From contig ONII01000016.1 of the NCBI GenBank assembly GCA_900317845.1, positions 1-44,033 on the forward strand: a stretch of DNA of 44,033 nucleotides, given 5' to 3'. The notes beneath the pieces were generated by a model. That model searched no databases. It had not been told where the DNA came from and saw only the letters and a list, made by a program, of their open reading frames with translations. Position numbers and translations under genes: made by a program. Shown here one piece after another: positions 7,253 to 43,541 of this stretch (the stretch's first letter is position 1; each line of letters begins with the position of its first letter). The stretch is from an uncultured Bacteroidales bacterium. GTDB lineage: Bacteria; Bacteroidota; Bacteroidia; Bacteroidales; UBA932.

Positions 7253-7278
7253 GTCATGCCCGACCTGATCGGGCATCT
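7253..7278 (+). repeat. Subfamily A palindromic element, copy 1 (3' of arginine decarboxylase)
   Basis: Runs from GTCATGCCCGAC to TCGGGCATCT: stem ATGCCCGA, loop CCTGA, complementary arm TCGGGCAT. It lies after the arginine decarboxylase stop with 3 nt between, GTCAT end toward the gene, and ends 9 nt before the next ATG. It could form a hairpin in the intercistronic mRNA. Confidence 0.85.
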
Positions 7279-7287
7279 GAAAAGAGA

Positions 7288-8013
7288 ATGATCACCGCCG
7301 CAGAAATAAAGTTCATCAAATCCTTGTCCCAGAAGAAATTCCGGGACGAGCATGGGCTTTTTGTGGTAGAAGGTGAAAAACTGGTTCAGGAGGCGTTAAG
7401 GTCCGGTTTCAAGGTCGAGAAAGTGTATCGGAAAGAGGAGATTGGCGAGGCCGCTATGGCCCGTATCAGTGCGCTCTCCTCCCCTTCCCCGGTGCTTGCC
7501 ACTGTAGCGCGGCCCGCAGACCTGGAGTCGGCCCTGTTGCCTTCCCAAGGCCTTTTTCTGGCGCTGGACGGCATTCGGGATCCGGGGAATCTGGGCACCA
7601 TCCTCCGCATTGCGGACTGGTTCGGTATCGACGCCGTGTTTGCTTCGCCGGATACGGTGGACGTCTTCAATCCAAAAGTGGTACAGGCCACTATGGGCGC
7701 CATTTTCCGGGTGAAGTTCCACTATACGGACATTCCCGCCCTGTGCCGGAGCGCCCTGCAGGCCGACGGCAACGTATACGGTACTTTCCTGGACGGAGAG
7801 AACATGTACCAAAAAAGCCTTTCCAACGGCATGGAAAGGCCTTCTGTGATTGTGATTGGCAATGAGGCCAACGGCATTTCCGCCGCCACAGCCGCCTCCG
7901 TCAGCGACCGCCTCTACATCCCTCCCTTCCCCGCCGATGACCCCGGCTCCGAATCCCTCAACGCCGCCATCGCCACCGCCATCACCGTCGCGGAATTCCG
8001 CCGGCGTATTTAG
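7288..8013 (+). CDS. TrmH/SpoU-family RNA 2'-O-methyltransferase
   Basis: A 241-residue SPOUT methyltransferase of the SpoU/TrmH family, which uses SAM to 2'-O-methylate ribose in rRNA or tRNA. An N-terminal substrate-binding domain (IKFIKSLSQKKFRDEHGLFVVEGEKLVQEAL) precedes the trefoil-knot catalytic domain. The three conserved motifs are visible: DGIRDPGNLGTILR (about 94-107), VIVIGNEANGIS (about 188-199) and ESLNAAIATAITVAEFRR at the C-terminus. The exact RNA target is unknown; RlmB-type rRNA methylation is one option. It starts 38 nt after arginine decarboxylase with a palindromic element between them, and another copy starts 2 nt beyond its stop. Confidence 0.9.
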   Translation: MITAAEIKFIKSLSQKKFRDEHGLFVVEGEKLVQEALRSGFKVEKVYRKEEIGEAAMARISALSSPSPVLATVARPADLESALLPSQGLFLALDGIRDPGNLGTILRIADWFGIDAVFASPDTVDVFNPKVVQATMGAIFRVKFHYTDIPALCRSALQADGNVYGTFLDGENMYQKSLSNGMERPSVIVIGNEANGISAATAASVSDRLYIPPFPADDPGSESLNAAIATAITVAEFRRRI

Positions 8014-8014
8014 C

Positions 8015-8040
8015 GTCATGCCCGACTTGATCGGGCATCT
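8015..8040 (+). repeat. Subfamily A palindromic element, copy 2 (between methyltransferase and GIY-YIG gene)
   Basis: From GTCATGCCCGAC to TCGGGCATCT with loop CTTGA; differs from copy 1 at one loop base. It starts 1 nt after the methyltransferase stop, GTCAT end toward that gene, and ends 13 nt before the GIY-YIG ATG (8054). Confidence 0.85.
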
Positions 8041-8053
8041 AAAACTACAATTT

Positions 8054-8362
8054 ATGGAAACAAAAGGCTACATCTACATGATGACCAACTCTTCCAACAA
8101 GGTGTTGTATATCGGCGTCACAAACAGTCTTAAACGAAGAATAACAGAGCATGCCGATGGCCGTGGCTCCTCCTTTACCAGTAAATATAATTGTCATAAA
8201 CTGGTTTACTATGAGGTTTTACCGGATATTGAGCAGGCCATAGCCCGCGAGAAGCAACTCAAACACTTCCAGAGAGCCTGGAAAGAGGATTTGGTTAACC
8301 GCTTTAACCCAGAATGGGAGGACCTTGGAGTATCGCTTATTGATGATCCGAATGTGGTCTGA
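8054..8362 (+). CDS. Small GIY-YIG nuclease-domain protein
   Basis: A 102-residue single-domain GIY-YIG protein. The frame is open upstream, but the first ATG that gives the domain without repeat-derived residues is 8054 (METKGYIYMM). GYIY (5-8) stands for the GIY motif, then LYIG (18-21) for YIG, the catalytic arginine region LKRRITEH (26-33) and AREKQLK. This is the UvrC/UPF0213 type of stand-alone domain; proteins of this size are usually uncharacterised. Base composition is clearly lower in GC than the methyltransferase upstream, and the arrangement suggests recent arrival. A palindromic element lies 13 nt upstream. It ends 20 nt from the convergent helicase gene. Confidence 0.88.
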   Translation: METKGYIYMMTNSSNKVLYIGVTNSLKRRITEHADGRGSSFTSKYNCHKLVYYEVLPDIEQAIAREKQLKHFQRAWKEDLVNRFNPEWEDLGVSLIDDPNVV

Positions 8363-8382
8363 TATGGATGCGTGTGTATGAT

Positions 8383-10947
8383 TTAATACCCAATTCTCTT
8401 CCTGGGAGTTCGGTGCGTCGAATTAAGGTTCACGAACTTGGTTTCCAGGTAGTCACAACCATACTTCTCGTTGCTGCAGGCAAACGTAGTGTATGGATTC
8501 CCGTTCACCGCTACACCCTTCTTGACAACCATTATACGGCCGCAGTGGCATTTCGGGCAGAGTTCGGCTTCCGGAATGTCGGCTCCAGGTTTTGTTACCG
8601 GCTCCAGTGTCTGAACGAACTCCTTGACAAACGGAGACGGGTTGTTTATATCGTAGAGCACCCAGGTGTGTTTTTTTGCCCTGGTGATCCCCACGTAGAA
8701 TATGCGGCGTTCCTCGCTGAACGAATAGGCGTCAGGCGCACTGAGGACGTATCTAAGAACATGACTATCACTGATTTGCGATGGAAAACCCATTGTTCCA
8801 CCATTGCAGTTGAGCAGAATGATGTAGTCACACTCCAGGCCCTTGGACTGGTGAACTGTCATGAAGTTCAACTTGCGTCGGCCATAGGTAATATAAGCAC
8901 TGTTTTGACCCTCGTGAATGGCTAGTTCCGTGTTCTTGAAGATGTTCACATCGAACTTATATCGGCCCAGCAGCATGATTTCTTTATCTGCAGGAATCTG
9001 GTCGGCCAGGTATTTCACGGTTTCTACGATGTCGGTCTGACCGTTGGTTGAAAGGAAGTCCAGCTTGGTCTCAGCATCCTCCCTGAAGGAATGCACATTC
9101 TTGACGGCCTGTTCAGGATTAGCCAGGATGAACTTGGAAGAATCGGCAATGGCCGGTTCCCCGAAGCGGTAGGTGGTTTCCATCAGGCATTTCTTTGTGT
9201 AGCCAAAGAACTTCTCAAAGGACTTGAAAAGGGCCATGTCACTGCCTGCAAAGCGGTAGATGGACTGCCAGTCATCTCCCACGCAGAACAGTTTTGTAAG
9301 CGGCTCTTTCCTCCTCAACGACTCCAGGAAGCGGTAGCGGTCCATTGAGATGTCCTGGAACTCATCGACAAGAATGTAATCGTAGTCGGGACGATGTCCA
9401 TTGTTGCACAGCTCTGTGGCTCTGATGATGGCATCGGTGAAGTCAATTTCATTGTTCTCCTCCTCCATCCGCGCATACGCTTCAACGAAGGGAGCAACGA
9501 TATCATTAATTGTGATTGCATCCGGTCCGGTGCCAACTTCGCGACGGATATCGTTCATGGATCTGCTCCTGGACTTTAGCAGGAAGTTGAATGCTGTGAG
9601 CATCCCCAGAATGTTCTCTTCCTGGCGCTGCAACTCGCGGGCAACATTCTGTTGAGTGGCTTTACTGAATACCGCACCCAGATCCTGCAGTTGCTTGCTG
9701 AGGTTTTGGAACACATCACCCCGGTGGAATCCGGCACTTGATGTCTCAAGCAGGATTGTTCCCCTATCGTGGTGGCACTTTCTCTTCCACTCAATTCCGT
9801 CCAGATACTTATATTCTTCGTCGTACGTAAACCAACCTGGACAGTGCCCAGCCTCGTTTACAGCAAAATGCTCAAGATATATCCTTTTAGTCTGGCCATT
9901 GGGCTGGTCGATATAAATGGAGAAATCCGGGTAATACTGGCGATAGTCGGCGTCGACAGTATTGAATTCATATTTTTCCTCGTAACGGAATTTGATGCCA
10001 CGGAAGCCCAGGAAATCGCAGATTTTGCTCTCTTCGTCCGACTTGCAGAAAACAGGGTGACCGTCCATATCCTTGAAGAAGGCCTGGATGCCGTGTTTCT
10101 GGCGGTCCATCATGTAGTCCTGCATGGAGGAATACTCAAACTGGTCCCGCATCGTGTATCGCGAACGAATAATATAGTCGGCAATAGCAGCCCGGAATGA
10201 AGGATTCTCCTTCGAGAGTTTATGATAGACCTGGACTGAGAAGTCTTGCGGCGTGATGGTCGGCTTTTCGCCGGTTGCCTCGCCGATGATATCCAAAGCT
10301 AGCTTGTGGAAAGTGCGGCATTTCAGCTTCTTCTCTCCCAGGCGCTCCGAGAGTGATTCTGCCGCTTTTCTGGTGAAGGTGATGAGCAGGATCTTTTCGG
10401 CCGGGACATGCTGCACGTCGATGAGGTACCGGACCTTGCCGACGGTGGTCATGGTCTTGCCGCTACCTGCGCTGCTTATCACGAGTACGTTATCCTCCAG
10501 AGACACAACAGCCTCCCGCTGCTGAGCATCGAGAGGATATGCTAAGACGGTATCGAAATACTGGCGGCAACGGGAGCGCTCATTATCGATGAAGTGCTCA
10601 TTGTTGGCCTTTTTATGCGTCCGTGTGTCCGTCATTGCGGTATGGAAACGCTGGAAGGACTCCTTTTCTGCTGACTCTTCTAGTTCCTTGGTGTTGAGGA
10701 GAGACTTCACCTCTCTATCCAGCGCGTCGTATTTCTCTGCCAGCATCAGGCGCTCCGTCTCAGTGATATAGTGGCTGAAGCTGTAGTATTTGCTAATATC
10801 GGTAAAGGCAAGCTTTAAATCTGGTTGAATACGAGCAATAGTTTCTAGGCGCTCTTGATGCCTCTTTGCCTTCTGTCTGGACCTGATGCAAATCATCACC
10901 CAGAGGATGACAGCAACAGTCAGCAGTATGATTAATGCATACAGCAT
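8383..10947 (-). CDS. Membrane-anchored UvrD/HelD-like SF1 helicase with nuclease-like insert and zinc ribbon
   Basis: An 854-residue SF1A helicase. Residues 3-20 form one hydrophobic segment (LYALIILLTVAVILWVMI), followed by charged and coiled-coil-prone sequence. The helicase has Walker A SSAGSGKT (158-165), Walker B LVDEFQD (526-532), GDDWQSIYRFAG (557-568), MTVHQSKGLECD and a motif VI RIFYVGITRAKK. Between the early motifs and Walker B is an insert with SDEESKICDFL (about 303-313), YYPDF (338-342) and YLEHF (357-361), the pattern of a PD-(D/E)XK-like domain found in HelD-type helicases. The C-terminus has a topoisomerase-like zinc ribbon with C797, C800, C824 and C831. Its composition is AT-richer than the neighbours. 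It may act in DNA repair or defence; the sequence alone does not decide. Confidence 0.85.
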   Translation of the reverse strand: MLYALIILLTVAVILWVMICIRSRQKAKRHQERLETIARIQPDLKLAFTDISKYYSFSHYITETERLMLAEKYDALDREVKSLLNTKELEESAEKESFQRFHTAMTDTRTHKKANNEHFIDNERSRCRQYFDTVLAYPLDAQQREAVVSLEDNVLVISSAGSGKTMTTVGKVRYLIDVQHVPAEKILLITFTRKAAESLSERLGEKKLKCRTFHKLALDIIGEATGEKPTITPQDFSVQVYHKLSKENPSFRAAIADYIIRSRYTMRDQFEYSSMQDYMMDRQKHGIQAFFKDMDGHPVFCKSDEESKICDFLGFRGIKFRYEEKYEFNTVDADYRQYYPDFSIYIDQPNGQTKRIYLEHFAVNEAGHCPGWFTYDEEYKYLDGIEWKRKCHHDRGTILLETSSAGFHRGDVFQNLSKQLQDLGAVFSKATQQNVARELQRQEENILGMLTAFNFLLKSRSRSMNDIRREVGTGPDAITINDIVAPFVEAYARMEEENNEIDFTDAIIRATELCNNGHRPDYDYILVDEFQDISMDRYRFLESLRRKEPLTKLFCVGDDWQSIYRFAGSDMALFKSFEKFFGYTKKCLMETTYRFGEPAIADSSKFILANPEQAVKNVHSFREDAETKLDFLSTNGQTDIVETVKYLADQIPADKEIMLLGRYKFDVNIFKNTELAIHEGQNSAYITYGRRKLNFMTVHQSKGLECDYIILLNCNGGTMGFPSQISDSHVLRYVLSAPDAYSFSEERRIFYVGITRAKKHTWVLYDINNPSPFVKEFVQTLEPVTKPGADIPEAELCPKCHCGRIMVVKKGVAVNGNPYTTFACSNEKYGCDYLETKFVNLNSTHRTPRKRIGY

Positions 10948-11079
10948 GCAGTTTTCATGAAAAGGAGGCTCTTGTGACTACAAATTTACAAAAAATCTTC
11001 TATAGCTTCTACGTCTCAGTAGCTGTGGACAAAAAGGAGAAGGTATTGCCTTCAAGAGAATAGGGTATCCTGATGGAAA

Positions 11080-11106
11080 AGATGCCCGGTCGGGGCCGGG
11101 CATGAC
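11080..11106 (-). repeat. Subfamily A palindromic element, copy 3
   Basis: Read on the minus strand: GTCATGCCCGG, loop CCCCGA, CCGGGCATCT. Third of three same-orientation copies between the GH13 gene and the helicase gene. Confidence 0.85.
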
Positions 11107-11179
11107 GAGGATGGGCAAGTAGGCTATGTTGACACATTGTTCCGTGAAATGGAACTAGTTGAATATTAGCTATTTATCA

Positions 11180-11213
11180 AAAATCACCTATGCGATTATG
11201 CATAGGTGATTTT
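11180..11213. terminator. Hairpin, possible terminator downstream of the GH13 gene
   Basis: A perfect 14-bp inverted repeat, AAAATCACCTATGC and its complement, separated by 6 nt (GATTAT) and ending in TTTT on both strands. It could terminate transcription leaving the minus-strand PFK-GH13 operon. It is AT-rich compared with classic terminators. It also lies in the accessory block between repeat copies 3 and 4 and could be mobile-element debris. Confidence 0.45.
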
Positions 11214-11259
11214 GCGTAAGTGATTCATACTGAATTGATTGCGTTTTACGGCTAAAAAG

Positions 11260-11286
11260 AGATGCCCGGTCAGGGCCGGGCATGAC
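11260..11286 (-). repeat. Subfamily A palindromic element, copy 4
   Basis: Minus strand: GTCATGCCCGG, loop CCCTGA, CCGGGCATCT. One loop base differs from copy 3. It lies 26 nt from copy 5. Confidence 0.85.
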
Positions 11287-11312
11287 GAGGAGGGCCGGGC
11301 TGGACTAAAAAG

Positions 11313-11338
11313 AGATGCCCGGTCAAGCCGGGCATGAC
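11313..11338 (-). repeat. Subfamily A palindromic element, copy 5 (3' of GH13 gene)
   Basis: Minus strand: GTCATGCCCGG, loop CTTGA, CCGGGCATCT. It begins 4 nt after the stop of the minus-strand GH13 gene with the GTCAT end toward the gene, the same polarity as copies 1 and 2. Copies 4 and 5 share the flank AAAAAGAG just outside the ATCT end. Confidence 0.85.
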
Positions 11339-11342
11339 GGGG

Positions 11343-12764
11343 TTATTGCACCTGGATAATGGTAAAGTCAAGGGTGCAGACCGTGAGGCTGTAGACTGTC
11401 CGGACGAGTTTAATGCCCAGATAGTCAAGGGCTTCCGGGGGGATGCGGACGGTGATGTCGGCCGTGTCGCCAAAGTTGGAGACAAGCAGGTAGGTTTCCT
11501 TGCCGTCTGAGCGGAGCCAGGCGAAATGGCGGTCCGGGTTAAAGCGGGCGGGGTCCTGGCAGTAACAAAGGTCGAAGGTGCGGCCTTCCGCAAAGGCAGG
11601 CTTGCCGGCCAATGCCAGCACCTCCCGATAGCGTTTCAGGACGCCCTGGTCCGGGGACGATAGCGCCGGAACCGTGCACCAGTCAAAGATGGAGGTGCGT
11701 CCGTCCAGGCCGCTGAAGCCTTCCTGCTGCATACCGCGCTCCCCTGCCTCCTGCCCGAAGTACAGCATGAAGGGGGCGTCATTCAGCAGGGCGCTCACTG
11801 CCAGGGCTGCATAGCCGGCCTGGGCGCTGCCGCAGAAAAAGTCGGATGCCACGCGCTGCTCGTCATGATTCTCCAGGAAGTTGAGCATATGCGGCTGTAA
11901 AGTCCCCAAAAACTGCCAGTTATGCGAGATCTCCCGGGCCGATGCACCGGAGCAAGTCACCGCCCGCAGCGTGTCGTACAGGCCGCATTTGTCGTACAGG
12001 TAGTCAAAGCCCACCTCTTCCACGTACATGCGGTACTTGGCTTTTTCGTACACTTCGGCCACAAAAATGACCTCCGGGAACTCTGCCTTGATGCTGGCGA
12101 TGAGCCACTGCATGAACTGCGGGGGCACCAGCTCCACCATGTCGCAGCGGAAGCCGTCCACGCCCTTAGAGGCCCAGAAACGCACAATGTCCAGCATCTT
12201 GTCCCAGGTGCCGGTGTGGTGATCGCAGTAGTTAATCTTGACCGTTTCCCACCAGTCGTTGATGCCGGGAGCGGCGGTGAAGCAGTTTCCGGAGGCCTTG
12301 GCGGGCATTTCCTGGTAGCCTTTGGGGTTGAGCGGCAGTTGCAGGGCCTCTCCCGGGTAGTAGAAAAAGTCGTTCTCCGGTGCCCAGTGCACGGTTTTAT
12401 CGTCCCCAACGCCCAGCGTCCCCTTGTATTCGCGGGCCACGTGATTGGGCACAAAGTCGATGATGCACTTGAGACCCGCCGCGTGCGTGCGCTTCACCAG
12501 GTCCTCGAATTCTTCCATCCGGCGCTCCGGGACATCGGCCATGTAAGGATTGACGTCGTAGTAGTCGGTAATGGCGTAGGGACTCCCGGCCTCCCCTTTC
12601 ACCACCTTTTCTCCCGAGCTGGCGCTGGCATGCCGGATGAGGCCGGTGTACCATACATAATGAGCACCGAGCCCTTTCCAATACTGGAAGGACCCGGTGT
12701 CGATGGAAGAAAATTTACCGTTTCCCCAGAGTCTGGGAAGTACCTGGTAAATAATTCTTTTCAT
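11343..12764 (-). CDS. GH13-family alpha-amylase-type glycosidase, cytoplasmic
   Basis: A 473-residue GH13 (alpha/beta)8-barrel enzyme without a signal peptide, so probably acting inside the cell on alpha-glucans or oligosaccharides. Conserved regions: CIIDFVPNHV (region I), GVDGFRCDMVE with the nucleophile D208, VAEVYE with the acid/base E237, and FLENHDEQR with the transition-state Asp D301. It ends with a beta-sandwich domain (YLLVSNFGDTADITV). The exact linkage specificity is not readable. The start codon is 1 nt from the stop of the PFK gene upstream, so they form an operon linking glucan breakdown to glycolysis. Three palindromic repeats and a hairpin follow the stop. Confidence 0.9.
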   Translation of the reverse strand: MKRIIYQVLPRLWGNGKFSSIDTGSFQYWKGLGAHYVWYTGLIRHASASSGEKVVKGEAGSPYAITDYYDVNPYMADVPERRMEEFEDLVKRTHAAGLKCIIDFVPNHVAREYKGTLGVGDDKTVHWAPENDFFYYPGEALQLPLNPKGYQEMPAKASGNCFTAAPGINDWWETVKINYCDHHTGTWDKMLDIVRFWASKGVDGFRCDMVELVPPQFMQWLIASIKAEFPEVIFVAEVYEKAKYRMYVEEVGFDYLYDKCGLYDTLRAVTCSGASAREISHNWQFLGTLQPHMLNFLENHDEQRVASDFFCGSAQAGYAALAVSALLNDAPFMLYFGQEAGERGMQQEGFSGLDGRTSIFDWCTVPALSSPDQGVLKRYREVLALAGKPAFAEGRTFDLCYCQDPARFNPDRHFAWLRSDGKETYLLVSNFGDTADITVRIPPEALDYLGIKLVRTVYSLTVCTLDFTIIQVQ

Positions 12765-12765
12765 A

Positions 12766-13995: not shown

Positions 13996-14030
13996 ATTGT
14001 TTGTTAAAAATTTGGTTCCTTTAAATCATA

Positions 14031-14038
14031 CAAAGGTA
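14031..14038 (-). promoter_or_regulatory. -7 box (TACCTTTG) for the PFK-GH13 operon
   Basis: TACCTTTG on the minus strand, 35 nt before the PFK ATG at 13995. No exact -33 TTTG at the standard spacing. Confidence 0.55.
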
Positions 14039-14177
14039 ATCATTTTTTGTGGAAAAACATGATTTTTATTGGCAGGTATGGCCAATGTCCCACTGGAAGT
14101 CCCGCCACCGCTACGTTTTCCGGCCAAACTGCTCCCCTGGCGTACCAATCGCAGCATGAAATTCCGGAAAGATTCAC

Positions 14178-14185
14178 TACATTTG
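14178..14185 (+). promoter_or_regulatory. -7 box (TACATTTG) for the Y-family polymerase
   Basis: TACATTTG ends 5 nt before the ATG at 14191. Transcription would start at the start codon, which argues for this ATG and against an upstream start at 14047. Confidence 0.55.
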
Positions 14186-14190
14186 TAAGA

Positions 14191-16590: not shown

Positions 16591-16597
16591 AACCCTG

Positions 16598-16605
16598 CAA
16601 AGATA
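16598..16605 (-). promoter_or_regulatory. -7 box (TATCTTTG) for the AraC regulator
   Basis: TATCTTTG on the minus strand, 7 nt before the ATG at 16590. It supports that start and a very short leader. The 91-bp AT-rich interval to the divergent gene is the likely operator region. Confidence 0.6.
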
Positions 16606-16669
16606 ACAAAATCTGCGAAATTGGTATATAATCAGCCAATATTTGTACAAGAACTTGGAAACCTCGCCG

Positions 16670-16677
16670 TACCTTTG
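16670..16677 (+). promoter_or_regulatory. -7 box (TACCTTTG) for the hydrolase operon
   Basis: TACCTTTG ends 4 nt before the ATG at 16682, again implying an almost leaderless transcript. It rules out an upstream start at 16643. Confidence 0.6.
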
Positions 16678-16681
16678 CACC

Positions 16682-17761
16682 ATGAAACAAACCGTAACCA
16701 TAGCCCTTGCAGCGATGTTGCTGCTGGGCTGCAACCAGAACAAGAATATGAACACCCTGAATCTCACCCAGGAATGGGACAAGACTTTCCCGAAATCGGA
16801 ACTGGTCAATCACAGCAAAGTCACTTTCCACAATCGTTTTGGCATTGAACTGGCCGCGGATATGTATGTCCCCAAAGAGATTCCCGGTCAAGCCGGGAAT
16901 GACGTCACGCCCGACATCGATCGGGCGTCTCTTCCCGCCATCGCCGTCTGCGGCCCCTTTGGCGCAGTGAAGGAGCAGACGGCCGGCATCTATGCCCAGC
17001 ATATGGCCGAGAGAGGGTTCCTCGCGATCGCCTTTGATCCCTCTTTTACCGGCGAATCCGGCGGTGAACCCCGCAGGATGGCGTCACCTGACATCAATAC
17101 GGAGGACTTCCTGGCGGCCGTGGATTTCCTTTCCACCAACGAATTGGTAGAGCCCGGGCGCATCGGCATCATCGGCATCTGCGGCTGGGGAGGCATGGCC
17201 ATCAACGCAGCTGCGCTTGACCCCCGCATTAAGGCAACCGTCACATCCACCATGTATGACATGTCCCGCGTGGCGCGCGAGGGCTACTTTGGCAGCACCG
17301 ACAATGAGGCTGCCCGCGACGCCCAGCGGCAGGCCTGGGCCGCGCAGCGCACTGAAGACTATCGCAGCGGTACCTACAAGCGTGCCGGCGGCGTGGTCGA
17401 TCCGCTTCCGGACGATGCACCCTGGTTCGTCAAGGACTATCACGCCTATTACAAGACGCCCCGTGGGTACCACAAGCGCAGCGGCAACTCTAACGACGGT
17501 TGGAATGTCATCGGCACCATGTCCTTCATGAACCAGCCCCTGCTGGACATGGCCGGCGAAATCAAGACTCCCGTGCTCATTATCCATGGCGAGAAGGCCC
17601 ACAGCCGCTATTTCAGCGAAGGCGCCTTCGAGAAACTGAAGGGCGACAACAAGGAACTCCTCATAATCCCGGGAGCCGTGCATACTGACCTCTATGATGA
17701 CGTTGCCGGAGTCATCCCCTACGACAAGATGGAATCCTTCTTCAAAGAGAACCTGAAGTAA
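16682..17761 (+). CDS. Lipoprotein alpha/beta hydrolase (DLH/YcjY-like) with repeat-derived insert
   Basis: A 359-residue alpha/beta hydrolase exported as a lipoprotein: MKQTVTIALAAMLLLGC with C17 in a good lipobox. The core has LPAIAVCGPFGAVKEQ, the nucleophile elbow GICGWGG (Cys at 167 where most hydrolases have Ser, as in dienelactone-hydrolase-like proteins), STMYDMSR, VLIIHGEKAHSRYFSE and the catalytic His region PGAVHTDLYD (H334). The substrate is unknown. Residues about 66-83 (EIPGQAGNDVTPDIDRAS) are encoded by two inverted palindromic elements inserted in frame in the N-terminal part of the core; the protein otherwise looks complete. It has divergent AraC control and shares TAATG with the next gene. 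Confidence 0.85.
   Translation: MKQTVTIALAAMLLLGCNQNKNMNTLNLTQEWDKTFPKSELVNHSKVTFHNRFGIELAADMYVPKEIPGQAGNDVTPDIDRASLPAIAVCGPFGAVKEQTAGIYAQHMAERGFLAIAFDPSFTGESGGEPRRMASPDINTEDFLAAVDFLSTNELVEPGRIGIIGICGWGGMAINAAALDPRIKATVTSTMYDMSRVAREGYFGSTDNEAARDAQRQAWAAQRTEDYRSGTYKRAGGVVDPLPDDAPWFVKDYHAYYKTPRGYHKRSGNSNDGWNVIGTMSFMNQPLLDMAGEIKTPVLIIHGEKAHSRYFSEGAFEKLKGDNKELLIIPGAVHTDLYDDVAGVIPYDKMESFFKENLK
16878..16903 (-). repeat. Subfamily A palindromic element, copy 6a (inside hydrolase gene)
   Basis: Minus strand: GTCATTCCCGG, loop CTTGA, CCGGGAATCT. The stem has T:A where other copies have G:C, with both arms changed. It is joined directly, GTC end to GTC end, to copy 6b. Confidence 0.8.
16904..16930 (+). 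repeat. Subfamily A palindromic element, copy 6b (inside hydrolase gene)
   Basis: Plus strand: GTCACGCCCGA, loop CATCGA, TCGGGCGTCT. Both arms carry a matching T-to-C / A-to-G change relative to copy 1. With copy 6a it forms a 53-bp inverted pair that keeps the reading frame. Confidence 0.8.
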
Positions 17762-18305: not shown

Positions 18306-20479
<2,174 letters not shown>

Positions 20480-24560: not shown

Positions 24561-25417
24561 AGCGTCTGATTTCCATTGTGATCGGCCTGTGTGCGGCCTG
24601 TTCTCTCTCCTTTGCCCAGGTAGACCTGGACAAGGAGTTCTTCAGCCTGCCGGACACGGTCACCAACGAGTATCTGGACAGCCTCAAGCTACAGGTCCAG
24701 AAACCCAACGACTATTGGATGATCGGGGTGTACGGGGGGATGTCGGCCCAGTTTGGCTACTGGAACCCTTCGCGGCTTTCCCAGGCGCAGGTGCAATTCC
24801 CGGTGTACGGTTTTTCCGTCATCCGGCAGTTCACCATGTTTGGCCTGTTCCCTTTTCTGGGACTGGAGTTTGGCGCGCAGCAAAACTATGAGGGTTACGA
24901 GTTCAAGACCAACAAGGAAACCGGGTACCGCTCTACTGAGTCGGGTGCGTACAAGGCCATGATGCGTGTTCCGGAGGCCTATATCCTCACCCACGGCCAC
25001 TTCGACCTGGGCCAGCACTTCAAATTCATGCTCAAGGTGGGTTTGTATGGCGGCTACAGGACCGGTATCAAACGTGTGCTGGACGATGCCTATGCCGGCA
25101 CCTCCTATGAGAATTACCTGACCGCTTTCCGCGACTACGACCTCCGCTGGACCTACGGCCTCATGGGTGGCCTGGGTATGGGACTGGTGTTTAATCCCAT
25201 AGAGATTCACCTGAACGTGAATATCAAATGGGGCTGGGGCTCGTTCTGGCAGCCGGATTATTCCAGCCCTTACTATTACCGTTTTGGCTACCCGCTGGAC
25301 GGTACCGTTACCCTGGGCGTGTATTATCAGCTCACGCCCCGTTATGGCCACACGCGCGCGCAGCTGCGTAAACTGGCCCGGAAAATGATAGAAGAACAGC
25401 AGCAGAATAAGCAATGA
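24557..25417 (+). CDS. Predicted outer-membrane beta-barrel protein
   Basis: A 286-residue protein starting at ATG 24557, which overlaps the preceding stop (ATGA). MKRLISIVIGLCAACSLSFAQ is a cleavable Sec signal with probable cleavage after AQ or near it. The mature part alternates aromatic and polar residues in strand-like segments with Gly turns (WMIGVYGGMSAQFGYW, FMLKVGLYGGYRTG, WTYGLMGGLGMGLVF, LDGTVTLGVYYQLTPRYG). This suggests a small barrel of roughly 10-12 strands. The C-terminal helix RAQLRKLARKMIEEQQQ is unusual for a barrel, which normally ends on an aromatic strand. The function is unknown. It is coupled to the Ig-like lipoprotein and to ispG. Confidence 0.7.
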   Translation: MKRLISIVIGLCAACSLSFAQVDLDKEFFSLPDTVTNEYLDSLKLQVQKPNDYWMIGVYGGMSAQFGYWNPSRLSQAQVQFPVYGFSVIRQFTMFGLFPFLGLEFGAQQNYEGYEFKTNKETGYRSTESGAYKAMMRVPEAYILTHGHFDLGQHFKFMLKVGLYGGYRTGIKRVLDDAYAGTSYENYLTAFRDYDLRWTYGLMGGLGMGLVFNPIEIHLNVNIKWGWGSFWQPDYSSPYYYRFGYPLDGTVTLGVYYQLTPRYGHTRAQLRKLARKMIEEQQQNKQ

Positions 25418-26676
25418 CAAAATTGATGGAAACCCGGACCGTCCGCGTGGGCGATGTCCTGATTGGCAGCGGCCACCCCATTGTGGTCCAGACTATGTGC
25501 AATACCCATACGGCGGATGTCGCCGCTACCGTGGCGCAGTGCCGCCGCCTGGCAGCGGTGGGCTCGCAGCTCATCCGTATCACCGTTCCCTCCCTGTCGG
25601 ACGTGCCCGCCTTGCAACAGATCCATGATACGCTGCGGGAAGAGGGTATTCAGACGCCCCTGGTGGCCGATATTCACTTCTCGGCGGAAGTGGCCATGGC
25701 CGTAGTGCCCGTGGTGGAGAAAATCCGTATCAACCCGGGAAACTTCCATCCGGACCATGAAAAAGCCCGCCAGCTCTTTGGGCAGTTCCTGGAAAAGTGC
25801 AAACAGTACAACCGGGCCATCCGGATTGGCCTGAACCATGGTTCGCTGGGCAAATACATTGTGGAAAAGTACGGAAATACGCCGCAGGCCATGGCTCTGG
25901 CCGCCATGGAATGGGTGGAGATGTGTATGGACGCTCAATTCTTTAACGTGGTGGTATCCCTCAAGGCGTCCAATACGGTGGTGATGGTGCAGGCCTACCG
26001 TGAGCTCGCGCGCCTGATGCAGGAGAAAGGCGTGGTGTTCCCGCTGCATGTGGGGGTGACGGAAGCCGGCAACGGCGACAGCGGCCGCATCAAGTCCTGC
26101 GTAGCCATTTCCACGCTGCTCTCCGAGGGGATCGGCAATACCATCCGTGTGTCCCTCACCGAAGACCCTGCCAACGAGATTCCCGTGGCGCAGTACCTGG
26201 CCCGGCGCTACGGTCCTGTCATACCGAGCGAAGCGAGCGTATCTCTCTCCGCCCGCGAGACTGCTCTCCTCAAGGCGGCGTGCGACTGGGGCGCTCCCCT
26301 GCTCAACCACGAGGTAGACGACATTCCCCTGGAGGACGAATACCTTAAGGACGAGATTTTACAGGCCTGCAGGCGCCGTTTCTACAAACCGGAGTACATT
26401 GCCTGTCCGGGCTGCGGCCGCACGCTGTACGACCTGGAAAACACCTTTAACAAGGTAAAGGCGGCTACTGCCGGTTTCAAGGATGTGGTGATTGCCGTCA
26501 TGGGCTGCATTGTCAACGGCCCCGGAGAAATGGCCGATGCCGACTACGGTTACGTGGGCGAAGGCGCCGGCAAGGTTACGCTCTACCGTAAAAAAGACCC
26601 CGTCCTGAGGCATATACCCGAGGACGAGGCTGTAGATAAGCTTGTGGAGCTGATTACTGCGGATCGGGCAGAATAG
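25414..26676 (+). CDS. ispG: IspG, HMBPP synthase, with the Bacteroidota insertion domain reduced
   Basis: A 420-residue 4-hydroxy-3-methylbut-2-enyl-diphosphate synthase of the MEP isoprenoid pathway. The TIM barrel runs from RTVRVGDVLIGSGHPIVVQTMCNT to GIGNTIRVSLTEDPANEIPVAQYL. The iron-sulfur domain has C331 and C334 (ACPGCGRT), C365 (MGCIVNGPGE) and E372, matching the known [4Fe-4S] ligands. Long-form Bacteroidota and plant enzymes carry a ~200-residue A* domain between these parts. Here only about 55 residues join them, starting with the repeat-encoded VIPSEASVS (about 269-278). All active-site residues are present, so it is probably functional. It overlaps the upstream stop by 4 nt and convergent psd by 23 nt. 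Confidence 0.95.
   Translation: MTKLMETRTVRVGDVLIGSGHPIVVQTMCNTHTADVAATVAQCRRLAAVGSQLIRITVPSLSDVPALQQIHDTLREEGIQTPLVADIHFSAEVAMAVVPVVEKIRINPGNFHPDHEKARQLFGQFLEKCKQYNRAIRIGLNHGSLGKYIVEKYGNTPQAMALAAMEWVEMCMDAQFFNVVVSLKASNTVVMVQAYRELARLMQEKGVVFPLHVGVTEAGNGDSGRIKSCVAISTLLSEGIGNTIRVSLTEDPANEIPVAQYLARRYGPVIPSEASVSLSARETALLKAACDWGAPLLNHEVDDIPLEDEYLKDEILQACRRRFYKPEYIACPGCGRTLYDLENTFNKVKAATAGFKDVVIAVMGCIVNGPGEMADADYGYVGEGAGKVTLYRKKDPVLRHIPEDEAVDKLVELITADRAE
26218..26245 (+). repeat. Subfamily B palindromic element inside ispG
   Basis: GTCATACCGAG, core CGAAGCG, AGCGTATCTC. Outer arms ATAC/GTAT and the inner GC-GAA-GC mini-hairpin are visible. Read in frame as [10 protein letters not shown] at the junction of the barrel and iron-sulfur domains. 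It differs from the mnmE copy at one base. Confidence 0.85.
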
Positions 26677-30534: not shown

Positions 30535-30545
30535 AAGCCACCTGT

Positions 30546-32706: not shown

Positions 32707-32728
32707 CGTGCATTTTTTACAATTTTAC

Positions 32729-37151: not shown

Positions 37152-37162
37152 GCGATCTGGGT

Positions 37163-37193
37163 TTTGAAAATTGTGGAATAAGTCGTATTTTTG
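37163..37193 (+). promoter_or_regulatory. Full Bacteroidota promoter for lptD (TTTG-N19-TATTTTTG)
   Basis: -33 TTTG (37163-37166) and -7 TATTTTTG (37186-37193) are separated by 19 nt, the known optimum for the Bacteroidota housekeeping sigma factor. The ATG at 37236 lies 42 nt downstream. Confidence 0.75.
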
Positions 37194-37211
37194 TACCTTA
37201 TATTTATTGCA

Positions 37212-37241
37212 CAAATATAGTAAATAATTGGTTAAATGACA
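37212..37241 (-). promoter_or_regulatory. Promoter for the amidase gene (TTG-N19-TATATTTG)
   Basis: On the minus strand, -7 TATATTTG (37212-37219) and a -33 TTG (37239-37241), 19 nt apart. It points at the amidase gene with a ~60-nt leader. It interlocks with the lptD promoter: each promoter's start region lies inside the other's transcribed leader, and its -33 falls inside the lptD coding start. Confidence 0.65.
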
Positions 37242-40208
37242 AGGAAGTTCCTGCAATATCTTGTTCTGGCGGTGCTTATTTTCACCGTCGGTGCGTCGGA
37301 TTTGCAGGCACGCCGTTTCCGGCAACTGCCGGATTCCAGTTTAACCGCTTTGCGGGCTGCGGGCCGTACTCCCCTGCGTGACACCTCGCTTCGTTCCACG
37401 GGCGATTCTTCACTCCGTTCCATGGCCGATTCCTCCTTCGCCGCGGTGCTGGACTCAAGTCTTATCGCCTCCCGGGATTCCCTGCACAGGGCCGATTCCA
37501 TCAAAGCCGCCCGGGCCGACTCCGTGGACCTGCTTCGCAAGAGTTCACTGGAGCGTCCGGCCTTCTCTACCGCCAAGGACTCCATCATCACGGATTTCAG
37601 CGACGGCAAACGCATGATCTATTATTACGGCGGCGCCACGGTCACTTATCAGAACATGAAACTGACGGCGGATTACCTGGAATACAACATGAAAACCAAC
37701 ACGGTATACGCCAGGGGCCGGAAAAACCTTACCACCGGAGAAATGGAAGGCCTTCCGGAAATGACCGAGAACGGGCAAAGCTACAAGATGGACGAGCTGT
37801 ATTACAACTTCAACTCCCAGAAAGCCCGTATCACCAATATGGTCACCAAGGAGGCGGACGGTTTGCTGCAGGGTAAGAAAATCAAGATGGAACCGGACAA
37901 GTCCATCAACATGCGCGACGGCGTGTACACCGTATGTGACCTGGAGGAGCCCCACTATTACCTGAAACTCAGTCTTGCCAAGGTCATTACCAAGCCTTCG
38001 CAGAAGACGGTGTTTGGTCCGGCCTGGCCGGTGGTGGCCGGCGTCCCTATCCCTATCGGCCTTCCTTTTGGTTTTGTGCCCAAAAAGCCGCAGCGCGCCA
38101 CCGGTCTCCTGATGCCCACCTTCGGTGAAGAACAAGCCCGCGGATTCTTTGCCAGGGACATGGGTATTTACTTCGTCATCGGCGACTATTTTGACATTTC
38201 CCTCACGGGCAGCTACTATACGCTGGGCTCCTGGTCGGTGGAGTTAAACTCCAGGTACAAAGTGAATTACAAGTTTAACGGTACGCTGGCCTTCAACTTC
38301 TCCAACGACCAAACCGGCGAGCGGGGCAGCACGGACTTCGTCCAGTCGCAGAACTTCGGTTTCCGCTGGTCGCATTCGCAGGATTCCAAGGCCCATCCGG
38401 GTTCCACGTTCAGCGCTTCCGTGAACTTTACATCGCCCTCCAACAACCGCTACAATGCCCGTTCGGTAACGGATGCCCAGCAAAACCAGGTGGGCTCATC
38501 CATCTCCTATTCACATAACTGGAACGGCAAGTTCAGCCTGAGCGTAAACGCCATGCACAACCAGAACTCGCGTGACTCCAGCTATTCGTTCACCCTCCCC
38601 AATGTTACGTTCAACGTTACGCGTTTCTATCCGTTTAAGCGGAAGAACCGCGTGGGAAAAGAAAAAATCTACGAGAAAATTTCCTTCGGCTATTCCACCT
38701 CCCTGCAAAACCGTATTAGCTTCAAAATGCGAGATTTACAGGACTATAAGATGGTGGACGGCGACTTTGTCTACAAGACCAACAAGGCCGGTGTCAAGTA
38801 TCGGGAAAAGGAGTTTGGAGATTCTTTGGGCGTGAAGGCGCTCCAGAGGCTGAACAACGGCATGTCGCACAATTTCCAAATCGGCCTGCCCAACTTTACG
38901 CTCTTCAAGTACATCAATGTTACGCCCAGCATCAGCTATGGTATGAACTGGATGTTCAATAAAGGCCGGCAATACCTGGAGACAGAACTGGACGAGAAAG
39001 GAAACCCTATCCTGGTCACGGACAAGGAGGGCAACCAGGTGATGGCCCAGAAGATGGTTTCGGATCCGGGGACGGCGTTCAACGGCTTCGGTGCCACGCA
39101 CACGTATTCCGGGAGCGTATCGGCCAGTACCCGTATCTACGGCATGTTCAATTTTGGCAAGCACCGGAAAATCCAGGCCATCCGCCATGTGATTACCCCG
39201 TCCATGTCGCTGAGTTTCAGCCCGGAAAAGGGTACGTCCTTCAATGGCTGGCGCACGCTGGAGGCCTATTATGACAAGCGGGGCACCTACCACGCAGAAA
39301 GCCAGTACAACATTTACAGCGTCACCGGCCATCACAACTCGGTGTCCCCGCCCGGACGCGGGAAAAGCGCCACCATGTCCCTGAGCTTCGGCAACAACCT
39401 GGAAGCAAAGGTGCGCGACTTGAGGGACACTACCGGTACGGGTTCCAAGAAGGTGAAGCTGCTGGATCAGCTCAACATCAATACCAGCTACAACTTCCTG
39501 GCAGACTCCCTGCGCATGCAGAATGTGGGTATTTCGGCATCGACCAACCTCTTTAACAAGGTGAATATCAGCGGCAACCTGAATTTCGACCCGTATGCCA
39601 TCGACGAGAAAGGTAAAAAAATCAACAAGCTCAATGTGGTGGCAACCGGCGTGCCGCTGCGTCTGACCAACGCTTCCCTGTCGGCCTCTTTCTCCCTGAA
39701 CGGAAAGGGGGCCATCAACGGCAACGACGGCTCCAAGAACAATGGCGCGGAGACAGATGCCAATTCCTATCAGCGCATTTATTATCATCCTATTACCGGC
39801 GAATACATCCCGGGCGGTTACGTGTACTACATGAACCCCAACTCGCCCTGGTCGGTGAACGTGAGCTACTCGTTCAATTATTCCAAGAGTTATACTTACC
39901 AGAGCACGACCAAACAGCTGGTAGTGAACAACAAATTCACCCAGACGCTGAACCTTAGCGGTAATGTCAAACTTACCCCGCGCCTGAGCATCCAGGCCAC
40001 CACGGGCTTTGATATCATGGCCTTGAAGTTCACCACAACGCAAATCAGCGCCTCCTATGACCTTCACTGCTTCAATATCGCCGTTTCCTGGGTGCCGATG
40101 GGAACGTATAAATCGTACAGTTTCCGTATTGCCGCCAATGCCGCAGCACTGGCCGATTTGCTGCGTTTCAAGAAGAGCGACAGTTACATGGACAACCTGC
40201 TTCGCTAA
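37236..40208 (+). CDS. lptD: LPS-assembly protein LptD-like outer-membrane protein
   Basis: A 990-residue LptD/OstA-family protein that inserts LPS into the outer leaflet. A signal peptide (MTRKFLQYLVLAVLIFTVGASDLQA) is followed by a Ser/Asp-rich, repetitive segment (about 40-110: DTSLRSTGDSSLRSMADSS...). Next is an OstA-like beta-jellyroll (YYYGGATVTYQNMKLTADYLEYNMKTNTVYARG...KARITNMVTKEADGLLQGKKI). The large barrel domain starts near GPAWPVVAGVPIPIGLPFGFVPKKPQRATGLLMPTFGE and has many amphipathic strands to the C-terminus. The N-terminal Ser-rich part is absent from proteobacterial LptD. It has its own strong promoter. Confidence 0.92.
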   Translation: MTRKFLQYLVLAVLIFTVGASDLQARRFRQLPDSSLTALRAAGRTPLRDTSLRSTGDSSLRSMADSSFAAVLDSSLIASRDSLHRADSIKAARADSVDLLRKSSLERPAFSTAKDSIITDFSDGKRMIYYYGGATVTYQNMKLTADYLEYNMKTNTVYARGRKNLTTGEMEGLPEMTENGQSYKMDELYYNFNSQKARITNMVTKEADGLLQGKKIKMEPDKSINMRDGVYTVCDLEEPHYYLKLSLAKVITKPSQKTVFGPAWPVVAGVPIPIGLPFGFVPKKPQRATGLLMPTFGEEQARGFFARDMGIYFVIGDYFDISLTGSYYTLGSWSVELNSRYKVNYKFNGTLAFNFSNDQTGERGSTDFVQSQNFGFRWSHSQDSKAHPGSTFSASVNFTSPSNNRYNARSVTDAQQNQVGSSISYSHNWNGKFSLSVNAMHNQNSRDSSYSFTLPNVTFNVTRFYPFKRKNRVGKEKIYEKISFGYSTSLQNRISFKMRDLQDYKMVDGDFVYKTNKAGVKYREKEFGDSLGVKALQRLNNGMSHNFQIGLPNFTLFKYINVTPSISYGMNWMFNKGRQYLETELDEKGNPILVTDKEGNQVMAQKMVSDPGTAFNGFGATHTYSGSVSASTRIYGMFNFGKHRKIQAIRHVITPSMSLSFSPEKGTSFNGWRTLEAYYDKRGTYHAESQYNIYSVTGHHNSVSPPGRGKSATMSLSFGNNLEAKVRDLRDTTGTGSKKVKLLDQLNINTSYNFLADSLRMQNVGISASTNLFNKVNISGNLNFDPYAIDEKGKKINKLNVVATGVPLRLTNASLSASFSLNGKGAINGNDGSKNNGAETDANSYQRIYYHPITGEYIPGGYVYYMNPNSPWSVNVSYSFNYSKSYTYQSTTKQLVVNNKFTQTLNLSGNVKLTPRLSIQATTGFDIMALKFTTTQISASYDLHCFNIAVSWVPMGTYKSYSFRIAANAAALADLLRFKKSDSYMDNLLR

Positions 40209-40224
40209 TTGCGCACCATTTTTA

Positions 40225-40255
40225 TTTGCAATCTGGATTTATTTGCCTATCTTTG
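40225..40255 (+). promoter_or_regulatory. Full Bacteroidota promoter for rho (TTTG-N19-TATCTTTG)
   Basis: -33 TTTG (40225-40228) and -7 TATCTTTG (40248-40255) at the optimal 19-nt spacing. The ATG at 40310 is 54 nt downstream, leaving room for a leader, where Rho autoregulation often acts. Confidence 0.75.
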
Positions 40256-40309
40256 TAGCGGCAAACCAATCGGATTGCCTTCTTTTACAGAACACATATT
40301 CTTATTTTT

Positions 40310-42103
40310 ATGCCCTATAAATTGCAAGAGCTCAATGAGATGAGCGAGGAGCAACTCAGAGCCCTCGGTGAATCTCTAAACATCAAAGGATTCAAGAAGA
40401 TGGACCAGCATACGCTGGGATTCGCCATTTTGGATGCGCAGGCCACGCTTGCTTCTCAGAATCCCATAGAAGAACCCAAGCAGAAAAAACGCGGTCGTCC
40501 GCGCAAAACGGACAAACCCGCTACAGACAAACCCGCAGAAGAGAAACCGGCAGAAGAGAAACCGGTAGCGACAAAGCCTGCCAAAAAGGCTGCAGCCGCC
40601 AAGGAGGAAGCCAAACCCGCAGAAGCCAAACCGGCTTCCAAACGGGGCCGCAAAGCCAAGCCTGCCGCTGAGAAGGTAGAGGTGGACGCAGCCGCAGCAG
40701 AGGGGAAAAAGCCGGAAGAGGCACAAGAGCAGCCCGTCGTAGATGGCAAGCAGTTCATGCACACGCTCTTTGATGACCTTAAGGAAGACGACGCCCAGAA
40801 AGAAGAGGCCGAAGAAACCGCCAAAGTGGAAGAAAAACGCCCGAGGGACAAAAAACAGCGCAATAAAGGACAGCAGCAACAGCAGGCGCAGGCACAGCCT
40901 CAGCCACAGGCGCAAGCGCAAGCGCAACAACAGCAGCAGCAAAACCAGCGCCCGCAGCGTATAGAGTTCGAAGGCTCCGTAGAGGCCACCGGCGTGCTGG
41001 AAATCATGCCGGACGGGTACGGTTTCTTACGCAGTTCAGACTACAATTACCTCAATTCCCCGGACGACATTTACGTTTCCCAGCAGCAAATCAAGCAGAA
41101 TGCCCTCAAAAACGGAGACACCGTCACCGGTGAAATCCGTCCCCCGAGGGAAGGCGACAAATATTTCCCGCTGGTAAAAATCAAATTCATCAACGGCCGC
41201 ACGCCGGAGTTTGTCCGGGACCGTGTCCCGTTCGACTTCCTCACTCCCCTGTTCCCCACAGAAAAATTCAACTTGCTGGGTCATGGGCACGAGAAAGACC
41301 AGAGCATCCGCATTGTGGATATGTTCACACCTATCGGCAAGGGACAGCGCGGCCTGATTGTGGCGCAGCCTAAAACGGGTAAAACCATGCTCCTGAAGGC
41401 CATCGCCAATGCCATTGCAGACAACCATCCGGAGGTATACGAGATTGTTCTCCTGATTGACGAACGTCCGGAAGAAGTGACGGATATGCAGCGTTCCGTA
41501 AAGGCAGAGGTGGTTGCATCCACCTTCGACGAACCTGCAGAGCGCCACGTCAAAGTGGCCAACATGATTCTGGACAAGGCCCGTCGCCTGGTGGAATGCG
41601 GCCACGATGTAGTAATCCTGCTGGACTCCATCACCCGCCTGGCCCGCGCCTACAATACCGTTCAGCCGGCTTCCGGCAAGGTGCTCACCGGCGGTGTAGA
41701 CGCCAATGCCCTGCAAAAGCCCAAGCGCTTCTTCGGCGCTGCCCGTAACATTGAGAACGGCGGTTCGCTCACCATCCTGGCCACGGCCCTTACGGAAACC
41801 GGTTCCAAGATGGACGACGTTATCTTCGAGGAATTCAAGGGTACCGGCAACATGGAACTCCAGCTGGACCGCAACCTGGCCAACAAGCGCATCTTCCCGG
41901 CCGTGAACCTGGTGCTCTCCTCTACCCGTAGGGACGACCTCCTGTACGATCCTTACACCAACAACCGTATCTGGATTCTGCGCAAGCTCCTGGCCGATAT
42001 GAACCCTGTGGAAGCCATGAACTGGATGCAGCAGCACATGGACGAATTCAAGACCAACAAGGACCTGATAGACAACATGTCCAAGTTTGGACGCTATGAC
42101 TAA
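40310..42103 (+). CDS. rho: Transcription termination factor Rho with long disordered insertion
   Basis: A 597-residue Rho hexameric helicase. Residues 1-45 form the Rho N-terminal helical domain ([24 protein letters not shown]). About 46-215 is low-complexity and charged: Lys/Pro/Ala/Glu-rich with tandem AEEKP units, then Gln-rich runs near 190-213. The RNA-binding cold-shock-like domain follows ([22 protein letters not shown]). The ATPase has [10 protein letters not shown] (K358), [13 protein letters not shown] and [10 protein letters not shown]. Such a disordered insertion is known in Bacteroides Rho, where it drives phase separation and affects termination. It overlaps mnmE by 8 nt. Confidence 0.98.
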
Positions 42104-43541
42104 TCTCTATCAGGACACCATCGTTGCTCCGGCCACCACCCCTGGGACCGGAGCAATTTCCATTGTACGCCTCAGCGGTCCGGACTGCTTCCGGATAGTG
42201 GACTCCGTGGTGGAACTGGCACACGGGACCGTTTCAGAGGCCGCTGCCTACACCATCCACTTCGGAAAGGTATATGTCATACCGAGCGAAGCGAGTGTAT
42301 CTCCCGCCCTTCTGGACGAAGTCCTCGTTTCCGTATTCCGCGCGCCACATAGTTATACGGGAGAAGATGCCGTAGAGATCTCTACGCACGCATCGGCCTA
42401 TATTGTGCAAGAGCTGGTGCGCTTGCTCATGGAGGCTGGTGCGCGCTTTGCCCAACCGGGAGAATTCACCCGCAGGGCTTTCCTAAATGGAAAAATGGAT
42501 CTGGCACAGGCAGAGGCTGTTGCGGATGTCATTTCGTCCACTACGGCGGCTGGGCACCGGGTGGCCATGAACCAGCTCAAGGGCGGTTTTTCCAAGGAAC
42601 TTGCCCGGTTGCGTGCAGAACTGCTGGAGATGGCATCCCTGCTGGAATTGGAACTGGATTTTTCCGAGGAAGATGTTGTATTTGCCGACCGGGAGAAACT
42701 CCTGATGCTGCTGGAAGCCACGCGCACGCATGTGGACCGGCTGGCGGCATCGTTCCATCAAGGCAATATGATTAAAAACGGCGTTCCTGTCGCTATCGTC
42801 GGCGCTGCCAACGCCGGCAAAAGCACCCTGCTCAATGCGCTGGTGGGTGAAGAACGGGCCATCGTTACGGATATTCCGGGTACTACGCGGGATACCATAG
42901 AGGAGGTAATCAATCTGGAGGGCGTCCTTTTCCGCTTTATCGACACCGCTGGAATCCGTGAGTCGCAGGACGCGGTGGAGAATCTGGGAATCGAGCGTTC
43001 CTTCCGGAAATTGTCGGAAGCGGAGGTGGTGTTGGGTATGCTGGACGTTACGTCGGACAGCGAGGATTTGGCAGCGCAACTGGCACTTTTGGGGCAGCAT
43101 TGGAACGGCCGTTCCCAGAAACTAATTTTGCTCCTCAATAAGTCCGATTTGATGGAAGATCCTACATATAACAAAAATGTTTCAGTAATTAACAAGTTTG
43201 TTTCTTCACTTGATTATAAGGTTGATATACTGAATATTTCTGCAAAAAAAGGTCAAGGTCTGTATGCGCTGAAGCAGCGGCTTTTAGCACTGGAAAAAGA
43301 CCTCATTCCCAATCAGGATTCCACTTTCGTGACCAATGTCCGGCACTATGACGCCCTTCGCCAGGCCTCTTCCGCCTTGCTGGATTGCCGCACTTCCCTC
43401 TCCCGCGGCATCCCCTCGGATCTGGTAGCGGAGGACCTCCGCCGCGCCCTCTCCAGCATCAATGCCATCCTGGGCACCGACCTCCTGGACCCCGAAGTCA
43501 TCCTGCATTCCATCTTCCGCAATCATTGCATCGGAAAGTAG
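42096..43541 (+). CDS. mnmE: tRNA-modifying GTPase MnmE with in-frame repeat and AT-rich patch
   Basis: A 481-residue GTPase that, with MnmG, modifies the wobble uridine (cmnm5U) of tRNAs. The start is ATG 42096 ([17 protein letters not shown]), overlapping the rho stop. The N-terminal formyl-THF-binding domain has IVRLSG and [22 protein letters not shown]. The G domain has [12 protein letters not shown] (236-247), [13 protein letters not shown] and NKSD. The C-terminus ends in the catalytic CIGK (Cys 478). Residues about 61-70 ([10 protein letters not shown]) come from a subfamily B palindrome that replaces a short variable loop. Bases about 43139-43260 are much AT-richer than the rest of the gene. 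Confidence 0.97.
42276..42303 (+). repeat. Subfamily B palindromic element inside mnmE
   Basis: GTCATACCGAG, core CGAAGCG, AGTGTATCTC; one base different from the ispG copy and in the same reading frame (VIPSEASVS). It lies in the loop before [14 protein letters not shown] of the N-terminal domain. Confidence 0.85.

Follow-up and report, generated by a model that had tools for sequence, protein, structure and literature searches.

The stretch of DNA analysed here, 44,033 nt from an uncultured Bacteroidales bacterium and hereafter called the window, contains ten short GTC-tagged palindromes, seven of which we group as family A and three as family B. Four of the sites that they occupy lie in frame within protein-coding genes, namely ispG, mnmE, ligA and an alpha/beta hydrolase gene. 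An earlier note, made from the sequence alone, had listed the ten palindromes without noticing these genic positions, and each is present where it placed them, the B copy given there at 20403 being the minus-strand element at 20404-20436. The palindromes and the open reading frames (ORFs) that host them are as follows.

7252..7278, plus strand: single A copy between a pyridoxal-phosphate (PLP) decarboxylase-like gene and a SpoU methylase gene
8014..8040, plus strand: single A copy at the end of the SpoU methylase gene
11080..11107, minus strand: intergenic A copy, matched by the covariance model
11260..11287, minus strand: intergenic A copy, matched by the covariance model
11313..11339, minus strand: intergenic A copy in tandem with the one at 11260..11287, matched by the covariance model
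16643..17761, plus strand: alpha/beta hydrolase ORF (Pfam) with an in-frame A dimer, peptide EIPGQAGNDVTPDIDRAS
16878..16903, minus strand: A copy, left half of that tags-inside dimer, with zero spacing and a GACGTC junction; in-frame insertion
16904..16930, plus strand: A copy, right half of the same tags-inside dimer, starting GTCAC; in-frame insertion
18353..20479, plus strand: ligA (NAD-dependent DNA ligase) ORF holding a B copy (Pfam)
20404..20436, minus strand: B copy with the long inner stem GGCCC/GGGCC, in frame in the C-terminal linker of ligA
25414..26676, plus strand: ispG (GcpE) ORF (Pfam, alignment), in which one loop carries different palindromes in different species
26218..26244, plus strand: short-form B copy inside ispG, reading frame kept, peptide VIPSEASVS
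42087..43541, plus strand: mnmE ORF (Pfam), listed with a TTG start; the coding start is probably the in-frame ATG at 42096
42276..42302, plus strand: short-form B copy inside mnmE, reading frame kept

Family A has a CGTC tag, an 8-bp stem, a loop of 5-6 nt and a CT tail. Family B has a TGTC tag, outer arms ATAC/GTAT, an unpaired stretch of the CGA/GAG type and an inner hairpin, which in the window copies varies from GC/GC up to GGCCC/GGGCC; its outer stem measures 4-5 bp, it lacks a continuous stem of 8-9 bp, and nested inner hairpins are present. Among copies from the same genome, the base preceding GTC is C in 48, T in five and G in two of 55 A copies, and T in 37 and C in one of 38 B copies. 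The first stem pair is A-T in all 34 distinct A copies, a position fixed by the search pattern, and the second is T-A in 28 and C-G in six. When the tail was left free in the pattern, 57 A copies of this genome ended in CT (55), CC (1) or CA (1), most commonly CTC (39). The shared ends GTCAT and ATCT(C) proposed earlier hold broadly, with the correction that the tag is really [C/T]GTC and the tail CT, and that the copy at 16904 starts GTCAC. Copies of either family lying within 100 bp of each other form 24 close pairs, 19 tags-inside, four tandem and one tags-outside, and spacing is zero in 3 of the 14 tags-inside A-A pairs. A dimers show no significant tendency to avoid equal partners (identical 0/14, equal stems 1/14; 59% of shuffles gave as few or fewer).

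The bare pattern GTCAT..ATCT occurs 18 times, against a mean of 6.2 and a maximum of 14 in 100 shuffles, a modest excess over chance; it is the stem that discriminates. A covariance model for family A, run on the window, returned all seven A copies (E < 1e-11), with no other hit under an E value of 0.2, the seven being among the 35 sequences from which it was built. Across the 2.41-Mb genome, the A and B counts are 57 and 26 with strict patterns and 83 and 83 with general ones, with no hits for the reversed-pattern control in either case. Covariation was judged at the stem pairs which the search pattern left free, in 55 A and 38 B copies of this genome drawn from 64 loci and the window, and compared with 2000 shuffles. 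Pair 3 of family A is Watson-Crick in 53/55 copies with four pair types (shuffles: mean 29.2, maximum 38), pair 4 in 54/55 (mean 35.2, maximum 46), and pair 3 of family B in 38/38 (mean 20.5, maximum 31). The compensatory arm changes first noticed in the window are thereby borne out above all 2000 shuffles; pair 4 of family B, half constrained by the pattern, pairs in 37/38, a value that shuffles also reach. The 34 distinct A copies, a set preselected for stems, have 272/272 cells paired with no one-sided change, and 40 two-sided changes against a shuffle mean of 10.6 (0/500 shuffles as high); two of the five measures used on this set, the number of pairs with a two-sided change and of further pair types, do not exceed shuffles. 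Good folding as DNA is seen for an A copy (z -4.5) and for the A dimer (z -4.4).

We then considered 300 genomes of the genus, this one included and many of them incomplete. Load per genome ranges from 0 to 116 for family A (control 0-1) and from 0 to 209 for family B (control 0-2), and the two counts correlate (Spearman 0.45). Nevertheless, 10 of the 59 genomes with at least 20 A copies hold zero or one B, and 16 of the 56 with at least 40 B copies hold zero or one A. In the A covariance model, B copies score 9.8-11.2 bits, against 46-51 bits for A copies. On these grounds we reject the proposal of one element with two linked forms; by counts and model scores, A and B are separate families, both living in the genus.

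The earlier note knew of no named family of this kind. However, the CGTC-tagged superfamily of repetitive extragenic palindromes (REPs), to which Neisseria dRS3 and Rickettsia RPE-4 and RPE-6 belong, matches, and excerpts of the paper that describes it already report it from Bacteroidetes (Di Nocera, De Gregorio and Rocco 2013; PMC3733652), so an unnamed class was discarded as an explanation. According to those excerpts, members have an unpaired CGTC (or TGTC, CCTC), a stem of 8-9 bp almost always starting AT, a loop of 4-5 nt and a tail that is mostly, though not always, CCA; tags-outside (HH) dimers predominate and are typical of the class without being a membership criterion. On its tag, stem and copy number, family A belongs with this superfamily. 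Family B is better called REP-like, its membership being unproven, because the tag is kept but the continuous 8-9-bp stem is missing. In searches of open-licence literature, the element cores led to seven papers unrelated by title and the encoded peptides to none, and PMC3733652 was the sole work that we noticed treating CGTC REPs as a class.

Our elements resemble CGTC REPs, as far as these excerpts go, in the CGTC/TGTC tag, the 8-bp A stem starting AT, covarying subfamilies, the absence of a linked transposase as judged from the flanks of Y1 genes, and genic copies that include uvrA, polA, DNA ligase and tRNA synthetases. They differ in the CT(C) tail and in the tags-inside arrangement of 19 of the 24 close pairs, and perhaps in the A loop, which is 5 or 6 nt when the stem is drawn as 8 bp; family B differs further by its short outer stem, internal loop and length-changing inner hairpin, and about half of the copies sampled here are genic. 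Rickettsia RPE-4 and RPE-6, by description, are likewise short palindromes within protein-coding genes; they belong to another phylum and have other sequences, whereas here two families extend across many species and several REP kinds are found in one loop. Neisseria dRS3 is, by description, likewise a CGTC-1 type palindrome with many copies, but differs in sequence and in arrangement, being mostly in large clusters, with many copies in intergenic mosaics (PMC3733652, excerpts). The GTAG REPs associated with RAYT/TnpA-REP (REP-associated tyrosine transposases) are also short tetranucleotide-tagged hairpins occurring in pairs; according to excerpts of Quentin et al. (2018; PMC6006769), their tag is GT[AG]G and several subclasses have a linked transposase, neither of which was found for our elements.

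Comparison of orthologous sites, always between species and with one genome per species, revealed positions filled in some species and empty in others. The A dimer of the hydrolase gene is absent in 20 of 21 aligned orthologues. The remaining one, L074, carries in the same loop (1999-2175) an in-frame array with a 24-bp period and repeated SGNDV-type peptides, which, as we read it, is an array grown from an A dimer. Eight of the 29 loci from other genomes were left out of that alignment: L084, which is also empty, L090 and L092-L094, which do not span the site, and L095-L097, which match the element alone. The site at 7253 is empty in the syntenic genome G037 (~87% identity over the block), where two genes overlap at that point, and no obvious target duplication is seen there relative to G037; G038 has a B copy at the corresponding boundary. 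For the copy at 8014..8040, the right flank has no counterpart in the G037 and G038 stretches. At the rho-mnmE boundary, rho is present in 20 of 30 loci, nine of which carry a whole or partial B copy, of two types, and the window has none. Positions differ among relatives at the hydrolase, 7253, ispG, mnmE and rho-mnmE sites, and the suggestion of a mobile structured element with covarying stems is supported by these comparisons.

A separate observation concerns the same boundary: in L239, L243, L246 and L256, the B copy seems to supply a new in-frame GTG start for mnmE.

REPs are named for their extragenic position. Even so, 44 of 90 sampled copies of this genome (A 28/55, B 16/35) lie inside an ORF that a codon-score model calls coding in the same frame on both sides, a share of 49% that is not far under the 68% expected at random. 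Random places in the same loci are called genic in 1014/1500 cases (68%) and the same loci read backwards in 2/1500; owing to these two controls, we consider the genic copies to be true calls and genes to be just mildly avoided. Twenty of the host ORFs were hand-picked for Pfam, from which their protein names are taken. Domains were found in 18, and in 15 the element is inside or between matched regions (L012 is counted among the 15 by inference from two stretches of one family). These hosts include PolA, UvrA (four copies), a tRNA 2-thiouridylase-like protein, methionyl-tRNA synthetase (metG), MurB and a MutY-like protein. Reading frames through the element are open in 4/6 cases for the shorter-loop A form and in 5/6 for the longer-loop A and both B forms; a single copy adds ~9 residues and a dimer ~17-18. 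For other phyla, intragenic REPs had already been listed in uvrA, polA and the genes for DNA ligase and tRNA synthetases (PMC3733652, excerpts); hosts of this kind may thus be genuinely preferred, our own sample not having been drawn for that question.

In three housekeeping genes, a single loop or linker holds more than one kind of REP. The ispG alignment comprises 30 genes, the window plus 29 of the best loci among 273 matching genomes. Clear REPs of four kinds are present in six of them: an ATAC-type B copy (window), a CCCGGG palindrome (L099), an ATTCT-type B copy (L110) and A dimers (L111, L113, L126), the last of which may represent one or several landings. L100 and L104 are ambiguous, with native codons resembling the element, and no REP was recognised in the other 22 of the 30 genes. 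L161 and L162 are named loci with such ispG REPs; the best named ispG loci come from the rumen metagenome assemblies RUG13929 (87% identity) and RUG11937 (86%), with Candidatus Cryptobacteroides species, probably the genus studied here, among the next. In mnmE, 4 of 30 rows have a copy, of two kinds: the window, L239 (decayed) and L240 on the one hand, and L252, of another type, on the other; the insert in L266 is unclassified and L267 has no readable sequence. The mnmE copies of the window and L240 share their junctions and measure 27 and 39 bp, respectively. Among 29 ligA loci, the window, L270 and L271 have REP-coded peptides ahead of the C-terminal EPTLF, and L285 has an A-like one. The ligA copies of the window and G037 are of ATAC type and that of G038, at the same place, is of ATTCC type, although this difference could also be a second landing. 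Taken with the nested B hairpins, the mnmE length change and the ligA type change suggest that copies can alter their inner stem or type after landing, by gene conversion or hairpin slippage.

The REP of ligA sits in the linker before the 3' end of the gene, where window positions 20462-20479 encode EPTLF; some relatives have ELTLF or QLSLF. This terminal sequence resembles a sliding-clamp binding motif. Contig C13 of genome G005 (L078, L269) is ~97-99% identical to the window around ligA and ~68% identical in the hydrolase gene, a contrast that suggests recent gene exchange between species.

We read the identity of the elements, their covariation and copy numbers, the filled and empty sites, the in-frame positions and the several REP kinds per loop as the traces of non-autonomous CGTC/TGTC-tagged REPs that are copied in trans into new sites, filtered by selection and sometimes changed in place, and we give this reading a probability of about 0.78. 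Short hairpins would be copied to new sites by unlinked machinery acting in trans, most likely at single-stranded DNA during replication, and new copies would land both in genes and between genes. Selection would then remove those that break frame or fold, leaving as survivors intergenic copies and in-frame inserts in flexible loops and linkers. In-frame survival would be easy because most frames through the elements are open, and landed copies may later change inner stem or type.

Several points weigh against this reading. No mobiliser was identified, in a search aimed at Y1/HUH transposases only. The evidence of filled and empty sites is between species alone, with no new insertion seen, and at single sites loss in the relative is possible, as at 7253 given ~87% identity with G037. 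Some shared loop positions may be one old, later-changed insertion instead of separate landings. Insertions often seem to replace some target bases, which blurs the element ends, and the closest ligA orthologue, L269, reads N across the REP site. One short B copy is unstable by standard DNA energies (-0.5 kcal/mol, z +1.59), whereas the inner stem of one long B copy does form (-5.7, z -1.74). Finally, the genic share falls below that of random placement, 49% against 68%.

As for a possible mobiliser, Y1 transposase matches occur in 219 of the 300 genomes, but none of 30 congener Y1 loci fetched has an A or B copy within ~1.5 kb (1.0 expected by density); among the three Y1 loci of this genome, one lies next to an ORF that contains a B copy. 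The genus also holds a long TnpA-REP-like HUH family of ~310-345 aa (L001, L003, L303-L332), with a Y1 core, HUH and YxxNNP motifs and a conserved C-terminal extension, present as several divergent copies in many genomes, some with in-frame stops. That this unlinked family mobilises A and B in trans seems to us doubtful, and we treat it as a lead, not a demonstration. In its favour are the shared motifs and matches to the model of REP-associated tyrosine transposases, all below its cut-off of 80 bits (L001 43.7, L145 39.0, L003 35.2). A strong member (E <= 1e-50, a threshold chosen after the scores were seen) is present in 177/300 genomes and goes with a high load: at least 10 REPs are found in 123/177 genomes with such a member and in 37/123 without (odds ratio 5.3), a correlation that carries no phylogenetic correction. 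On the other hand, a strong member is missing from 15 genomes that hold 40 or more REPs, including G064, G155 and G052 (95, 97 and 98% complete), and 34 of the 177 with one hold at most two REPs. An A or B copy lies near 1 of 30 long-HUH loci against 2.4 expected, in a locus set that overlaps the Y1 set. A REPtron with a Y1 gene was rejected, as repeats flank 0/30 and 1/30 congener loci, and so was a Y1 transposase as a strict requirement, in view of REP-rich genomes without a strong member. A broader proposal, that in this gut genus the two REP families steadily supply housekeeping proteins, those of replication and repair among them, with in-frame insertions in loops and are moved in trans by the unlinked, lineage-specific HUH family as the missing mobiliser of CGTC REPs, is distinctly unlikely as a whole.

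Copying may need no transposase now: copies may spread and change through template switching primed by hairpins, or through gene conversion, as DNA is replicated and repaired. We hold this tentatively, with the balance tilted against it: the inner stem differs at fixed mnmE junctions, the ligA type differs at one place between the window and G037 and G038 (where a second landing may be the cause), B copies have nested inner hairpins, L074 has a 24-bp tandem array and 7253 has no obvious target duplication, but full elements with intact tags at unrelated sites require a start for copying that is absent from shared sequence. Retention of the palindromes as regulatory RNA or DNA hairpins, such as terminators or mRNA stabilisers, instead of as mobile DNA would suit the copies at gene boundaries; it is highly improbable given 44 of 90 sampled copies inside coding sequence, sites that differ between species, loads from 0 to more than 200 per genome and tested sites that suggest no positional conservation across the genus. 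Chance open frames or faulty assembly are hardly credible as the source of the in-frame inserts. Long spurious ORFs do arise in G+C-rich DNA and metagenome assemblies make up many of the genomes compared, yet the coding caller passes 2 of 1500 backwards places, the inserts lie within Pfam-matched proteins with alignable orthologues, and those of ligA and mnmE recur in G037.

The element class is already known; what deserves follow-up is the extent of in-frame genic copies, the several REP kinds per housekeeping-enzyme loop and the natural series of genomes that have or lack each family. Different REPs in one ispG or mnmE loop mean that new protein segments arising from repeat DNA can be traced across hundreds of sister species. 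Since the genus ranges from genomes free of copies to genomes dominated by A, dominated by B or holding both, the mobilisation of CGTC REPs becomes directly testable.

Two other features of the window are of note. Positions 1-1113, at the contig start, hold a group II intron remnant, in the order reverse transcriptase domain, stop codon, maturase domain in the same frame and Rfam group II intron match, the sole match in the window at Rfam gathering scores. Positions 11142-11255 hold a second repeat of ~114 bp, whose ends are inverted (CCGTAAAATG/CATTTTACGG) and which contains an inner hairpin; it has three further matches in the genome (C29, C22, C30) and looks like a miniature inverted-repeat transposable element (MITE).

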